From: Cohaesibacter sp. ES.047
GTDB taxonomy: Bacteria; Pseudomonadota; Alphaproteobacteria; Rhizobiales; Cohaesibacteraceae
Direction: 5' to 3'
NCBI RefSeq assembly: GCF_900215505.1
Contig: NZ_LT907844.1
Span: forward strand, 2,576,501 to 2,640,500
Length of the DNA: 64,000 bases
A program made the translations under genes and the position numbers. Every line of letters starts with the position of its first letter. Position 1 is the first letter of the stretch. Shown here piece by piece: positions 3,410 through 9,064 of this stretch. Below the pieces are notes generated by a model. The model was given only the letters and a program-made list of their open reading frames with translations, did not search any database and was not told the DNA's origin.

Positions 3410-4903
3410 CTAGACCGCTTCTTTCTGCGCCCAGCTCATGCGTTTGCGATAAATCGTCGAAGGGCTGATTTCGAGCGCGGCAGCAGCGCGGGAGATGTTG
3501 CCATCAAAATGGTTCAGCGCCCCTTCGATGATCTGCTTTTCCTGTTTCCAGAATGGCTCGATGTGGGACGCCATGATTTGTCCGACATTGCGCAGATTGC
3601 TGATGGCCTCGTTGAGGTCGCTGTCATAAAAGGTGTCATCGCCCAGAAGGTCCGGCAGATGTTCCACTTCGACCACGCTGCCATCATACATCACCGTTAG
3701 CCGGCGAATGATGTTCTGCAACTGCCTGACATTGCCCGGCCAGCGATAGGCCTTGAGCATGCTTTCTGCCTCAAGCGAGAAGAGTTTGAAGCCCTTGCTT
3801 TCCTCGAGCGCATATTGCGACAGGAAAGAGCGGGCGAGAGGCATGATATCTCCGACACGCTCGCGCAGGGGCGGCAGGTGGATCGGCAGCACATGCATGC
3901 GGTAGAACAGATCTTCACGGAAACGCCCTGCGCGGACCTCTTCCAGAGGATCCCGGTTTGTCGCCGCCACAAAGCGGATGTCGAGCGAGATTTCCTTGCT
4001 GCCGCCAACGCGCCTGAGGCTGCCAGTCTGGATGAGCCGCAACAGTTTGGCCTGAAGGTCAAGCGGCATTTCGCCAATCTCGTCAAGGAACAATGTGCCA
4101 CCATCGGCCATTTCGGCTGCGCCCTTGCGGTCTTCGGTCGCGCCGGTAAAGGCGCCGCGCATGTGGCCGAACAGCTCTGATTCCATCAGATCCTTGGGGA
4201 TGGCGCTGCAGTTGATGGCGATAAAGGAGCCCGAGCCGCGGCTGGAGCGGGCATGCAGGGCCTGCGCGCAGACTTCCTTGCCCGTGCCGGATTCGCCTGT
4301 GATGAACACCGGCGCCCTTGATGCGGAGACCCGCATGATCTGGTCATAGACCCCCTGCATGGCAGGGGAATTGCCGATGAAGCCTTCGAAATCCTTGATC
4401 ACATCTTCCTCAGCCACGATATCCTCACCGCGCGTCAGAATCTCGGCTGTCGCGTGGCCGGGCTTCGGCGAGGCCACGCTCGCCACCGGATCGGCATGAG
4501 GGGCAGGGCGGTGATGAACAAGCAGATCACTGAGGCGGTTGGCCAAAGCATCGGCTGAAACAGGGCGCGCAACAAAATCATGAGCCCCGGCCTGCATGGA
4601 GGCAACGGCGCGCGACACCGAGCCATTTTCACTCAGCGCCAGCAACAGCATGTTGGGATGGCGGCTGGCAAGGCGCGACAGGACCTTCAGCTCTTCGTCT
4701 TCCTCAAAGGTGATGAGGGCGCACGCAGGCTCCATCAGAAAGCTCGCAGGGACTTTGCCGTCAAAGATCTGGAAGTCACAGCCGCGCTGCAGCTTGGACT
4801 CGAGAGTGCCTGACAACTGGTCGCTGATCATGCGGCGGAAGGCGGGGTCAGAACTGACAACTGCAATGCGGATTGAATTGGCATCCGCGTGTCCTGAATT
4901 CAT
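3410..4903 (-). CDS. Sigma-54-dependent transcriptional activator with degenerate receiver
   Basis: There are three domains. A receiver-like domain spans roughly residues 10-130. A sigma-54 AAA+ domain follows, with Walker A GESGTGKE at about 203-210, GAFTGA at 250-255 and Walker B LFLDE near 271-275. A Fis-type helix-turn-helix lies at the C-terminus (NISRAAAALEISPSTIYRK). The receiver lacks the phosphoacceptor Asp (ACALITFEED aligns with the DLVLLD position), and the conserved Lys of the KP motif is Arg. It is therefore probably not controlled by ordinary phosphorylation. The frame opens at a TTG, but an ATG six codons later (4901-4903) is preferred. No kinase gene is adjacent. The targets are unknown. 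Confidence 0.9.
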   Translation of the reverse strand: MNSGHADANSIRIAVVSSDPAFRRMISDQLSGTLESKLQRGCDFQIFDGKVPASFLMEPACALITFEEDEELKVLSRLASRHPNMLLLALSENGSVSRAVASMQAGAHDFVARPVSADALANRLSDLLVHHRPAPHADPVASVASPKPGHATAEILTRGEDIVAEEDVIKDFEGFIGNSPAMQGVYDQIMRVSASRAPVFITGESGTGKEVCAQALHARSSRGSGSFIAINCSAIPKDLMESELFGHMRGAFTGATEDRKGAAEMADGGTLFLDEIGEMPLDLQAKLLRLIQTGSLRRVGGSKEISLDIRFVAATNRDPLEEVRAGRFREDLFYRMHVLPIHLPPLRERVGDIMPLARSFLSQYALEESKGFKLFSLEAESMLKAYRWPGNVRQLQNIIRRLTVMYDGSVVEVEHLPDLLGDDTFYDSDLNEAISNLRNVGQIMASHIEPFWKQEKQIIEGALNHFDGNISRAAAALEISPSTIYRKRMSWAQKEAV

Positions 4904-5003
4904 GATGAAGGCGCCTTTCAAAAAATACTGCTTACCGAGACATGTTGCTCAAACAGGGTAAACAAAGTCTTTGCATTTCAGCCTTCTGATGAAAAACAGG
5001 AAT

Positions 5004-5018
5004 ATTTTGCTGCAAAAT
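5004..5018. promoter_or_regulatory. Palindrome upstream of sigma-54 activator
   Basis: ATTTTGC-T-GCAAAAT is a perfect 7-bp inverted repeat around one central base, about 100 bp upstream of the activator start codon. It may be an operator or an upstream activator site. A partial GCAAAA repeat follows at once. No regulator can be named from sequence alone. Confidence 0.35.
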
Positions 5019-5019
5019 G

Positions 5020-5044
5020 CAAAAAATCCCTGATCGCTCGGGAT
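5020..5044 (-). terminator. Rho-independent-like terminator after disrupted membrane gene
   Basis: On the minus strand a short ATCCC/GGGAT stem (5040-5044 with 5026-5030) is followed by TTTTTT. It lies 20 nt past the stop codon at 5063. The stem is only 5 bp, so the assignment is moderate. Confidence 0.45.
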
Positions 5045-5795
5045 GAAACCGGAGCAATAGGGTTAAGAAATCAAACCAAACAGCTGCAAGGTGAATTCGA
5101 CGGTGTAGCGCAATGCCTTGGCGCCAGCTCCAAAATTCTCGAAAAGCCAGGGGCAAAGCTCGAAAAAAAAGGCAAGGATGAGCATGGCATACCCTGTCAT
5201 GAACAAAGCGAAGCTTGTTACCCCGAGCAACCGGTTTCCATCATGGCCTTCACTATCAATCTTCAATGCCATCCACTGCTTGGCACCGATGCGAATCCAC
5301 GTGGTGGCGCTCAGCATGACGATGACAAGATGCATAGCCGTAGGCACCAGCGTGGTGAGCAGGCTGACATAGAGCCATGTATAGGCCCCTCGGCTATTAT
5401 CATCTTCCAGAGCGTCAAGCAGCGGTCCGAGAGGCAGGAGCGGGGTTGCGGAAGTGTGGTTGATGAGACTGAGGCAAAGGGAGGCGCTGAGAGCGACCCC
5501 ATAAAGGATGAGGATCGCAGCACCAATATCGACCAGCCCGTAGATGAGCTTTCGTGAGCCTCTGCTGACCAACCCCTTGCGCAGCAAGCAAGACGTCGTG
5601 CCATAGGACAAATAGTCAAAGCTGGCGTTGATGAGGGGTAAAACACCAATCGAGAAACTGGTCAGAAGTAGTTCATGTTTGGGGGCGGTTGCTAAATGCG
5701 ATGCCAGAATGATCGCAATTTGGGCTGCAGCCAAATATACGAGGATAAGTGAACCATAGGCCAAGCGTCCAAAGCCACGTTCGGTAAAATAGGCA

Positions 5796-5963
5796 ACTGC
5801 GACTGCGCCTGCGACTGCGACTGCGAATGCGCCTGCGCCTGCGCCTGCGCCTGCGAATGCGACTGCGCCTGCGCCTGCGAATGCGACTGCGCCTGCGAAT
5901 GCGACTGCGCCTGCGAATGCGACTGCGCCTGCGCCTGCGAATGCGACTGCGAATGCGCCTGCT
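5796..5963. repeat. Hexanucleotide tandem repeat, 28 units
   Basis: There are twenty-eight consecutive 6-bp units of the form NNTGCG on the plus strand (ACTGCG, CCTGCG, AATGCG; the last is CCTGCT). Read on the coding minus strand they give GCAGTC, GCAGGC and GCATTC, that is Ala-Val, Ala-Gly and Ala-Phe. The period is a multiple of three, so gain or loss of units preserves the frame and changes only the length of a hydrophobic segment. Groups of units also repeat as a higher-order pattern (AAT-ACT-CCT), which suggests slippage or unequal exchange. Confidence 0.97.
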
Positions 5964-6214
5964 ATCCAAAACAGCCAGCCCGAACGCTTTTTCACAGTCG
6001 CGTTCGGGCTGGCTGACGCCAGAATACCAAAGACAATCATGAGCGCAATGAGACAGGTCAGGCCGTAACGAATCCAAGCGTTTGCGGCTTTGAAAATAAT
6101 GATACTTCCAAAGCCGGTATCCTCTCCTGTAATGGTCCATTGAAGCAGCATGAAGAGCAGCGGATAGGCTACAGCGAGGCGCAGTGAAAGGTCGATCACC
6201 GGCCAGGAAAATGC

Positions 6215-6220
6215 ACTAGG
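6215..6220. repeat. Left target-site duplication of IS481-family element
   Basis: ACTAGG immediately precedes the left inverted repeat and is repeated exactly at 7223-7228. The 6-bp size and the CTAG core match the NCTAGN target reported for IS481. Confidence 0.93.
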
Positions 6221-7222
6221 TGTTTGATCCCATGCTTTGATGGTGCACCTTTCTCATTTGAATGGAGGGAAGCACTATGGGCCAAGTTCTACACGGCAGC
6301 GCCACGACGACAGAGGCAGTCCGTCGAGCAATACAAAATAGTCAAGAGAGCCTGAGAGTGCTTTCCAAGCGATACGGCATCAATCAGAAAACGGTCGTCA
6401 AGTGGAAGACGCGCACCTCACAAGCGGACTTAAGAACCGGACCGAAGGAGCCACGTTCGACTGTGCTTTCGCGGCAAGAAGAAGCGACCATTGTCGCCTT
6501 CCGCAGGCATACCTTGTTGCCTCTCGACGACTGCCTTTATGCACTCCAGCCGACAATCCCGCATCTGACGCGCTCTTCACTGCACAGATGCCTGCAACGA
6601 CACGGAGTTTCGCGACTACCGAGTGTCGAAGGCGACAAGCAGCCAAAGAAGCGTTTCAAGAGCTATCCGATCGGCTATTTCCATATCGATATTGCCCAGG
6701 TACAGACAGCTGAAGGCAAGCTCTATCTCTTTGTGGCTATTGACCGGACTTCCAAGTATGCCTTCGTTGAACTCTATACCAAGGCAGGAAAGATGAATGC
6801 TGCACAGTTCCTGCGCAATCTGGTCGCCACTGTGCCCTATACCATCCATACTGTTCTGACCGACAATGGCATCCAGTTCACCAATCGGTCTCGCGATCTC
6901 CATGAGTTCCAGCACATCTTTGACCGGGTCTGCACTGGAAACGGCATTGAACACCGCCTGACAAAAGTGAAGCACCCATGGACCAACGGTCAGGTCGAGA
7001 GGATGAACCGGACTATTAAGGATGCCACCGTCAAACGGTTCCATTACGACGATCACGAGCAACTCCAGAAGCATCTGGCTGTTTTCATAGATGCCTACAA
7101 CTTCGCTAGACGATTGAAGACGCTAAGGGGCCTGACCCCATACGAATTTATCTGCAAAAAGTGGACAGAGGATCCGGAAAGATTCAAAATGAATCCGATC
7201 CATCAAATCCCGGGACCGAACA
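6221..7222 (+). mobile_element. IS481-family insertion sequence, complete, 1002 bp
   Basis: The ends are 23-bp imperfect inverted repeats (6221-6243 and 7200-7222) with 18 matches. The left begins TGTTTGATCCC and the reverse complement of the right begins TGTTCGGTCCC; both end TTTGATGG. The element is flanked by exact ACTAGG duplications and carries one intact transposase gene. Intact ends, intact gene and perfect duplications suggest a fairly recent and possibly still mobile insertion. It lies opposite in orientation to the membrane-protein gene it interrupts. Confidence 0.95.
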
Positions 7223-7227
7223 ACTAG
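6277..7227 (+). CDS. IS481-family transposase
   Basis: The protein has an N-terminal helix-turn-helix region (about residues 10-45) and an rve/DDE integrase core. The acidic triad is visible as Asp138 (FHIDIAQ), Asp196 (LTDNG) and Glu241 (NGQVERMN). The ATG at 6277 has GGAGGGA just upstream and is preferred to an ATG five codons earlier. The last codon and the TAG stop are not wholly inside the element: the stop is supplied by the CTAG core of the target duplication. It would catalyse cut or copy of the surrounding element. The frame appears intact. Confidence 0.93.
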   Translation: MGQVLHGSATTTEAVRRAIQNSQESLRVLSKRYGINQKTVVKWKTRTSQADLRTGPKEPRSTVLSRQEEATIVAFRRHTLLPLDDCLYALQPTIPHLTRSSLHRCLQRHGVSRLPSVEGDKQPKKRFKSYPIGYFHIDIAQVQTAEGKLYLFVAIDRTSKYAFVELYTKAGKMNAAQFLRNLVATVPYTIHTVLTDNGIQFTNRSRDLHEFQHIFDRVCTGNGIEHRLTKVKHPWTNGQVERMNRTIKDATVKRFHYDDHEQLQKHLAVFIDAYNFARRLKTLRGLTPYEFICKKWTEDPERFKMNPIHQIPGPNN

Positions 7228-7228
7228 G
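7223..7228. repeat. Right target-site duplication of IS481-family element
   Basis: ACTAGG directly follows the right inverted repeat and matches 6215-6220. Its CTAG core also supplies the stop codon of the transposase. Confidence 0.93.
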
Positions 7229-7573
7229 GCGCCGCTCTGCGTCCAAACCGGCTCTCATCTGGGCCTTTGAAATATAGCCAGAGAAGAACCTGTCAAACCA
7301 CCGGACGAGCGTAGAATAGACCCAGATATTGTCCCGCTTGCGGATCCATTTGAGAACCCCCTCTCTCACCGGTGGTTGTGCGTCAACAAGCGTAAGAATG
7401 GAGAGAAAAACGGCAAACAGGATGAAAAAGATCGCCGCCCAGATTGCTCCGTTTAAAACAGGAGATCCTTGGGTGATAAAAATACCGCCCAATCCGGCCA
7501 GAATAGCACCGATTACACCGGCAATGCCCGAAAGGGAAAAAGTCAAATTCCGAAAGATTGATCTATCTGACAT
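7223..7573 (-). pseudogene. 5' portion of membrane-protein gene split by an IS element
   Basis: Translation starts at the ATG at 7571-7573, which is preceded by GGGGA. It gives 117 residues with two membrane helices (about residues 11-35 and 42-65) and a basic loop (RKRDNIWVYSTLVRWFDR) before the IS boundary. In the present sequence the frame runs on into the IS for 13 missense codons and stops at 7184. Joining codon AGT at 7223-7225 to GCA at 6212-6214 continues the frame as RRPSAFSWPVIDLSL. The intact allele would be a 500-residue inner-membrane protein of unknown function. Confidence 0.85.
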
Positions 7574-7703
7574 GCGTTTCCCCGTCTTGAAACCAAGACT
7601 GCACAGAACGGGAAGATATGGCAAGCCGCGCACACGCAAAAGATGTGAAAAAAGCGGGACTTGCCCGCTTCCTTTAGATGTCTGGTCGTATTTGCTCAGG
7701 TCA

Positions 7704-7901
7704 TCAGGCGAGTTGGGCGGGGAAGCCCGCTTCCTCAATGGTCTGGCGCACGGTTTCGGGCGCGGCGGACGAGGTGACTTCCACGGTGCCGCTTTCAAGG
7801 TCTGCATTGACCTCGGCGCTGCCATCAACGGCGGTGATTGCCTCCTTGATGGATTTCACACAGCCACCACAGGCCATTTCCTGAACATTGAGTTTGATCA
7901 T
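7704..7901 (-). CDS. Heavy-metal-associated (HMA) domain protein, CopZ-like
   Basis: The 65-residue protein is a single ferredoxin-like HMA domain. The metal ligands are Cys11 and Cys14 in MACGGC. Such proteins carry Cu(I) or a related soft metal to P-type ATPases. AGGAGA precedes the ATG at 7899-7901. No metal ATPase or metalloregulator lies in the window, so the partner is elsewhere. It follows the thiolase on the same strand by 29 nt, which may be fortuitous cotranscription. Confidence 0.88.
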   Translation of the reverse strand: MIKLNVQEMACGGCVKSIKEAITAVDGSAEVNADLESGTVEVTSSAAPETVRQTIEEAGFPAQLA

Positions 7902-7930
7902 CGGACTGTCTCCTATTCTGTTTGGGCGCA

Positions 7931-9064
7931 CTATACGTCCGGGTTGGTGGCCTTGGCAATGAGGGCCGTGCCCAATCCACCAGCCGCCGCGATGGCCGCA
8001 AGACCGGTGCCGCCGCGTTGCTTGAGTTCGGTATAAAGGCGGGTGGCCAGAATGGCCCCGGACGCGCCGACAGGATGGCCGCGCGCAAGCGAACCGCCGC
8101 CAAGATTGACGATGTCCATGGGCAGGTCGCCACCGCGCTGGCAGGCAATCGCCTGCACCGCAAAGGCTTCCATAATTTCCGCCACCGTCAGTTCGGAAGG
8201 CCGGACACAAGCCTTGCCAAGACAGCCGGTGATCGCCTTGACCGGTGCAAGACCGGGCATAGCCGGATCACCGCCGACCGTGCCGCCGCAGACAATCTCC
8301 ATCCGAAAACAGGAGAGGGACCGCGCGATCCGTTCCGAAACCACAAGGCAAAAGGCCGCCCCGTCCGCCGCAACGCTCATGTTGGCCGAGGTGATGCTGC
8401 CCGCATGCACCGGCGCACGATCGCACAGGCGTTCACTAAGCGGACGGGTGAAGGCATCGGACGCGATCCCGTCGATGGCAACGATATCTTCCAGCCGGTT
8501 CTCCATCTGGGCAGCCAGCGCCTTCTTGTGGCTTTCGATGGCGTATAGGTCCTGCTCCTTGCGGCCAACCCCCATATGCTCGGCAAGCGCATTGGCGGCT
8601 TCTGCCATATCCGGATCCCGATCCGGCCATGGCGTGAAGGGGGATTGCTCATAAGGCTCCGGTGCAGACCCATCGGCAAAAGTGCGAAACCGCAAGGGAC
8701 GGCGGGAATAGCTCTCCACACCACCAGCCAGAACAATCTCGTGTCGACCGGAGCGGATCAGCGCATCGGCCAGCATCAGCGCATCAAGGCCGCCCGCACA
8801 TTGCCGGTCGACGGAAAGCCCGGCCACGGTCTCCGGCAGGCCTGCCGCAAGGGCCGAGACCCGGGCCGGGTTGCCGCCGCCACCAAGGGCGTTCGACAGG
8901 ATGACTTCCTCCACCGCATCACCGCTTAGCCCGGCATCCGCAAGACAAGCCTTGATCACCGGTGTCGACAACTCGTGACTGGCAAGGTGGGCAAAGGCCC
9001 CGCTGCGCGGGGCAACCGGGCTGCGCCTTGCCGCGATGACATAGGACGGAGAGAGAGGGGTCAT
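7931..9064 (-). CDS. Thiolase-family protein lacking the second catalytic cysteine
   Basis: The protein has the thiolase fold over about 377 residues. The acylated cysteine is present (Cys89 in DRQCAGG) and so is the GHP histidine (His330 in RGHPVGASG). The C-terminal CxGGGxG motif reads AAAGGLG, so the usual proton-relay Cys is Ala. This argues against a standard degradative or acetoacetyl-CoA thiolase and leaves room for a specialised condensing or acyl-transfer role. The ATG at 9062-9064 overlaps the ligase stop as ATGA, so translation is probably coupled to the acyl-activating enzyme. The substrate is unknown. Confidence 0.85.
   Translation of the reverse strand: MTPLSPSYVIAARRSPVAPRSGAFAHLASHELSTPVIKACLADAGLSGDAVEEVILSNALGGGGNPARVSALAAGLPETVAGLSVDRQCAGGLDALMLADALIRSGRHEIVLAGGVESYSRRPLRFRTFADGSAPEPYEQSPFTPWPDRDPDMAEAANALAEHMGVGRKEQDLYAIESHKKALAAQMENRLEDIVAIDGIASDAFTRPLSERLCDRAPVHAGSITSANMSVAADGAAFCLVVSERIARSLSCFRMEIVCGGTVGGDPAMPGLAPVKAITGCLGKACVRPSELTVAEIMEAFAVQAIACQRGGDLPMDIVNLGGGSLARGHPVGASGAILATRLYTELKQRGGTGLAAIAAAGGLGTALIAKATNPDV

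Follow-up and report, generated by a model that had tools for sequence, protein, structure and literature searches.

The locus and its insertion element

The window considered here is a stretch of 64,000 nucleotides from Cohaesibacter sp. ES.047 (contig NZ_LT907844.1, positions 2,576,501 to 2,640,500), and coordinates, unless given for another locus, count from its first letter. At the locus of interest, what is best read as a single gene for a predicted membrane protein lies on the minus strand in two pieces, an N-terminal piece of 117 codons (7223..7573) and a C-terminal piece of 383 codons plus a stop (5063..6214), with an insertion sequence of 1002 bp (6221..7222, plus strand) between them. 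Two further genes of the minus strand flank this arrangement. One encodes what we take, from its sequence, to be a sigma-54-type response regulator (3410..4921); the other, likewise judged from its sequence, encodes a 65-aa protein that is presumably heavy-metal-associated (HMA-like; 7704..7901).

The element encodes a 321-aa transposase in an open ORF (6262..7227, plus strand), which scores 295.4 bits against the NCBIfam IS481 model NF033577 (cut-off 224) and contains the integrase core domains rve and rve_3 above cut-off. Its ends are imperfect terminal inverted repeats (6221..6243, plus strand, and 7200..7222, minus strand) that match at 18 of 23 positions, and it is bounded by a duplicated target, ACTAGG, of the NCTAGN type, whose copies occupy 6215..6220 and 7223..7228. 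The ends, the duplication and the open transposase had all been placed correctly in an earlier, sequence-only reading of this DNA. What that reading overlooked is that the transposase stop, TAG (7225-7227), sits inside the duplicated target, so that the final residue of the transposase would vary with the target site. Judged by its NF033577 score, its NCTAGN target and its target-borne stop, the element is a textbook member of the IS481 family.

The genome of ES.047 (5.1 Mb, one contig) holds 11 copies of the element that are 100% identical over 1002 bp, the window copy included, together with two loci near full length at 98-99% identity and four shortened ones; these 17 loci account for 18 of 21 search rows, three short and distant rows having been left out. 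The 11 identical copies stand at different sites, which implies that they moved recently. The insertion in the window is accordingly recent by the measure of copy identity (the sequence-only reading had suggested either a recent loss of function or an intact allele in the population), and the element appears to have been very recently active in its own genome. Exact 6-bp duplications bound six of the identical copies (TCTAGA, CCTAGC, CCTAGA, GTTAGG, ACTAGT and ACTAGG), five of them of the NCTAGN form, and the duplication in the window is thus no coincidence. Elsewhere in the genus the element is scarce, with a full-length copy in two of 18 genomes (that of ES.047 and G004, at 95% identity) and parts of it in three others; it was not found in G016, the genome with the most similar neighbouring regulator (86%). 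Five of the 11 identical copies (L001, L002, L005, L086 and L090) have no exact duplication, two of them differing at one of the 6 bases and three mismatching, and these may have been rearranged through recombination between copies.

Two pieces of one gene

One copy of the duplication and the element together measure 1008 bp, or 336 codons, and consequently both pieces share one frame, with the insertion point between codons 117 and 118. The pieces can be rejoined in frame, as the sequence-only reading proposed, into one gene running from 7573 to 5063. Both are open across all 500 codons, the most strongly conserved of the core residues described below are retained, and a repeat array in the C piece is in frame. 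Since a target duplication implies flanks that were once contiguous, the arrangement itself argues for a single ancestral gene. As it now stands, the frame of the N piece, read onward, stops after 12 more codons in the element (stop ending at 7184).

Homologues point the same way. The two pieces were searched separately rather than joined, in a database of 25 frames, and an uninterrupted frame of 555 codons (L073, from a record of an uncultured Rhodobacteraceae) matches the N piece and then the C piece, in that order: residues 19-117 of the N piece align to 44-132 of L073 at 29% identity (E 1e-8), and residues 2-362 of the C piece to 159-534 at 37% identity over 389 alignment columns (E 8e-54). 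Correspondingly, a profile of 33 homologues from which the window was excluded places the N piece at 22-102 (only 16.7 bits; E 1e-4 for a search space fixed at 1000) and assigns 109-493 to the C piece (E 4e-83); it was built from 33 of 36 full-length frames, with L081, L084 and L124 left out. In homologues, the N-terminal part and the core lie in one reading frame, which in the window is cut by the element in the linker immediately ahead of a conserved hydrophobic segment. Uninterrupted homologues of similar length had been predicted before any search, and they exist, in distant relatives only, L073 being the best of them at the identity just given. Frames closed at both ends measure 448-652 codons from stop to stop in 36 of 41 cases, and 246-424 in the other five. 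The duplication, the identical copies of the element and the junction-spanning homologues together support the reading that an IS481-family element recently split a single gene.

An accessory gene within the genus

The regulator gene occurs in all 18 genus genomes, that of ES.047 included, and the HMA-like gene lies beside it in 15 of the 17 congener loci, across a gap of 202-644 bp; at the other two it was not found within 1500 bp of the regulator. Aligned to G016, the window is matched at 4841-5030 and again from 7704 to 8100, and 69 bp without likeness stand in place of the intervening stretch (5031..7703). No match to either piece was seen in any of the 17 congener loci. In the genomes of 100 other relatives, 17 of them congeners, nothing matches the C piece at E 0.001, and no close homologue of it was found in genome contigs, plasmids, phages or those relatives; the N piece has no congener match and, outside the genus, two matches near E 0.001 among the 100 relatives, which we take as chance.

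Sister genomes that lack the fused frame, with no element at the site, had been named beforehand as evidence against a split gene, and they are literally what all 17 congeners present. The split reading stands nonetheless, because it is the whole gene that is absent there. The empty site in congeners shows the gene, at least for the genomes compared, to be an accessory insertion between two genes conserved in the genus, predating the arrival of the element; it is, in a sample of one genome per species, accessory rather than a conserved gene since lost. Just upstream of the inserted gene, at 7652-7680, we observed by eye, on the minus strand, a hairpin with a run of T after it, terminator-like with respect to the HMA-like gene.

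A sporadic family of predicted membrane proteins

The family to which the split gene belongs is thinly spread. With the C-terminal part as query, 6 of the 385 class genomes gave a match (own included), and a profile search raised this to 9 of 385, again including the own genome and with three of the matches weak. At the level of the phylum, profile matches occur in 8 of 398 genomes including the own; four of the eight fall in one other class (4 of 48 genomes there), and since these are the same four they add no evidence of their own. In the family f74 of the same class the profile matches 37 of 394 genomes, mostly one genome per genus. Records of members that carry a name (8 loci) are from Minwuia, Rhodobacteraceae, Roseovarius gaetbuli and uncultured Alphaproteobacteria. 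In assembling the set of family frames, L069, L070, L076 and L097 were set aside as repeat fetches of L063, L067, L062 and L080, as were 10 of the 40 f74 match rows that lacked a locus, and L126 gave no passing frame.

The members share a C-terminal core with the motif LPLxNAxFDxLSxGxTR, in which N, D, D and P are invariant over an 18-row alignment that includes the window, and the cores are mostly about 17-35% identical to that of the window. No Pfam, NCBIfam, PHROGs or PADLOC family was matched by the C piece. The N piece matched Bax1-I only, at 16.9 bits (cut-off 34.1); from PHROGs it drew two hits, both weak (E 0.048 and 0.44). Seven homologues had no Pfam match. A PDB sequence search with the C piece returned two matches only (E 0.096 and 0.64). 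AlphaFold2 models are helical and fairly confident both for the window C piece (mean pLDDT 79, pTM 0.71, with residues 91-126, inside the array, under 50) and for an array-poor member, L108 (mean pLDDT 82, pTM 0.81); comparison of the former with the PDB by Foldseek, and of the latter with VIA-align and the viral library, gave no convincing fold match. Viral contigs searched with the family alignment yielded no match, and no conserved partner gene was noticed beside the family in 7 + 2 loci read frame by frame. No paper on the family was among the matches listed in a literature search of sources outside subscription journals. A defence function was considered and set aside, there being no PADLOC match for any of the six proteins scanned. 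We describe the family, therefore, as a sporadic and unnamed one of predicted polytopic membrane proteins, a location suggested by hydropathy and by the predicted helices.

Several individual loci deserve mention. Two genomes carry paired family genes, L064/L068 (G345, side by side) and L063/L067 (G388), and in each pair an Ala-X array is present in just one of the two genes. In L081, from another class, Val-Gly-rich repeats precede the core instead of Ala-X. The copy in Roseovarius gaetbuli (L075, 3429-4690) appears to be spread over three reading frames and has, by eye, a decayed look.

The hexanucleotide array

Within the C piece lies an array that the sequence-only reading overlooked, comprising 27 perfect in-frame units of the form GCAKKC (5801..5962, minus strand; 5796-5962 with period 6 according to TRF), which encode Ala followed by Gly (12 units), Val (8) or Phe (7). 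Outside the array, GCA accounts for 7 of the 33 Ala codons in the C piece. Six GCAKKC units in a row occur in the own genome only at this site and in none of 100 relatives, and the reversed control pattern gave none. In many members of the family an array occupies the same position, a hydrophobic stretch just before the C-terminal core, and three array-poor members have ordinary hydrophobic segments in its place.

A frame was counted as having an array when its runs of 5 or more Ala-X pairs added up to at least 8 units, and 20 of 51 frames (50 plus the window) qualify; the 51 include two truncated second views of the paired genes L064/L068, and L110, although rich in short Ala-X runs, falls under the threshold. 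Over the 448 units of these arrays, departures from the mode of the array concerned number 32 at the silent positions (3 and 6) and 249 at the replacement positions (4 and 5). Mean entropy at unit positions 1 to 6 is 0, 0, 0.15, 0.85, 0.75 and 0.25 bits, where positions 1 and 2 are fixed by the way units were selected (Ala, then not Ala). The pattern of fixed silent and variable replacement sites holds in 19 of the 20 arrays, the reverse being seen in L074 (4 silent against 3 replacement departures). The silent letters themselves differ among members, which show GCA-NNC, GCT-NNC, GCC-NNT or GCC-NNA units; as letter pairs these are AC in 12 arrays, TC in 3, CT in 3 and CA in 2.

At positions 4 and 5, 856 of 896 cells hold G or T. 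Where TT encodes Phe, it is common in many arrays, and some arrays contain Ile and Ser variants. In the two GCC-NNA arrays (L082 and L085, both of one class), T at position 4, which would encode Leu, is absent from 24 of 24 units. Among arrays capable of encoding Phe, L110 and L074 have none and L068 has 3 in 58. In only 4 of 10 long arrays, that of the window included, do multi-unit blocks recur more than they do after shuffling. In the family member L072 (1209-1268), GCT-TCC (Ala-Ser) is repeated ten times without change, unlike the Val/Phe/Gly arrays.

The distribution of these traits was examined on a rapidly built tree of C-terminal parts (48 rows), in which 11 of the 45 inner branches have good support; its rows omit L085 and both truncated views, and arrays were called at a less strict threshold, hence tallies that differ from the count of 20 arrays. 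Over the 25 array-bearing rows, the silent letters require 4 changes (minimum 3, shuffled mean 8.5, and 0 of 300 shufflings as low). Presence or absence of an array is scattered, needing 16 changes where shuffling gives 14.5 on average. If rows without an array are treated as a further state, 18 changes are needed (shuffled mean 20.7, 20 of 200 as low), and the states are hardly more clustered than by chance.

Origin of the split and proposed turnover of the array

The history that we consider very probable, taken as a whole, is that an IS481-family element inserted at ACTAGG and cut an accessory gene that had arrived earlier and that belongs to a family of array-bearing membrane proteins, whose array most likely slips under selection. 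The gene would have come first to lie between the regulator and the HMA-like gene. The element would later have entered at a target of the CTAG type, in the way usual for it, cutting the gene between codons 117 and 118 and leaving an N-terminal part that ends 12 codons into the element and a C-terminal part without its own start region; for both reasons the full-length protein is most likely no longer made. One might suppose instead that the flanks never formed one gene, being two genes or a frame left open by chance, with the element merely between them, given that the C piece could start on its own at a GTG (6199) to give a 378-aa ORF and that neither piece occurs in any of the 17 congeners. 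This is hardly conceivable when the target duplication indicates flanks formerly joined and homologues cross the junction in a single frame, and, barring homologues that are fusions in their own right, we rejected it on the evidence of L073 and the 33-homologue profile, both of which span the two pieces. A subtler objection accepts the split and holds that the gene was already non-functional or neutral when the element arrived, in which case the insertion had no effect. The sporadic and dispensable character of the family (no match in 17 of 17 congeners) and the Roseovarius gaetbuli copy in three frames lend this some plausibility, but 500 open codons, retained core residues and an array still in frame make it, in our judgement, unlikely.

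With respect to the array, evolution by slippage in hexamers together with selection on the mix of residues seems to us the most likely account. Replication slippage in whole hexamers would add or remove units without ever shifting the frame, and repeated loss and gain would make the silent sites uniform. Turnover alone should level the replacement sites too, and their variety thus suggests that selection maintains Val, Phe and Gly together, the segment staying moderately hydrophobic. A rather more serious competitor, still improbable on balance, is that fixed silent sites record recent and independent expansions, each from one local seed, with no continuing turnover. That different members fix different silent letters (AC in 12 of 20 arrays, the remainder TC, CT or CA) and that array-less rows are scattered on the tree would both follow. 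Against this, the silent frame follows the tree in 4 changes (none of 300 shufflings as low) even though cores have mostly diverged to some 17-35% identity with that of the window, and each fresh array would need to regain Val, Phe and Gly. Targeted or biased mutation toward G or T, in place of selection, could also generate the Val/Phe/Gly variation, and the near confinement of positions 4 and 5 to these two letters is what it would produce; Leu is nevertheless missing from every unit of the GCC-NNA arrays, where a T at position 4 would create it, and some arrays include Ile and Ser. The GCC-NNA arrays point to selection on residues, thinly, as they are two arrays from one class, and the argument is weakened by this number and by the Phe-poor arrays of L110, L074 and L068. 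We consider mutation bias less likely as the cause of the mix on that same thin evidence, and give it a slim chance. Under the preferred account of slippage with selection, we propose that the array may form a tunable hydrophobic segment of a membrane protein. That such a self-renewing array lets a transmembrane segment be re-tuned rapidly and without risk to the frame, perhaps in recognition among strains or in action against phages, is a speculation that probably will not hold.

Significance and comparison with known systems

The split is ordinary, and it is the array-bearing family that is of interest. An insertion of this sort is an everyday genome change that matters for annotation only, in that two hypothetical pieces are better recorded as one interrupted gene. 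The family matters more, being unnamed in the libraries searched and yet present in 37 of 394 genomes of f74. Its arrays reverse the usual pattern, with silent sites fixed and replacement sites free, and they make it possible to test how concerted evolution and selection act within one membrane segment.

Of known systems, the nearest to the element is ISLxc2, an IS481 member of Leifsonia xyli described as duplicating an NCTAGN target that also supplies the transposase stop (PMC2516522). The window element shares with it a single IS481-type transposase ORF in about 1 kb, imperfect inverted ends beginning TGT, the NCTAGN duplication and the target-derived stop (PMC2516522); no notable difference emerges, and the element is new by its host. 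The interrupted gene resembles ordinary IS-interrupted genes in its insertional disruption, its duplication and its open flanks, and differs from them in being itself accessory, not found elsewhere in the genus (17 genomes sampled).

The array invites comparison with systems of programmed variation. In phase-variable contingency loci, gain or loss of units shifts the frame, whereas the 6-bp unit of the window array keeps it. Targets of diversity-generating retroelements show adenine-specific changes to any base, copied from a template repeat; the variable positions in the arrays of this family hold G or T (856 of 896 cells), which looks unlike that pattern. Closest are bacterial proteins with coding tandem repeats or low-complexity regions, which likewise contain short in-frame repeats whose number slippage can change; hydrophobic and aromatic residues are described as under-represented in the low-complexity regions of prokaryotes (PMC6821194). 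By comparison with the proteins described there (PMC6821194), the array is distinguished by its alternation of Ala with Val, Phe or Gly in a membrane protein, and by silent sites that are fixed while replacement sites vary.
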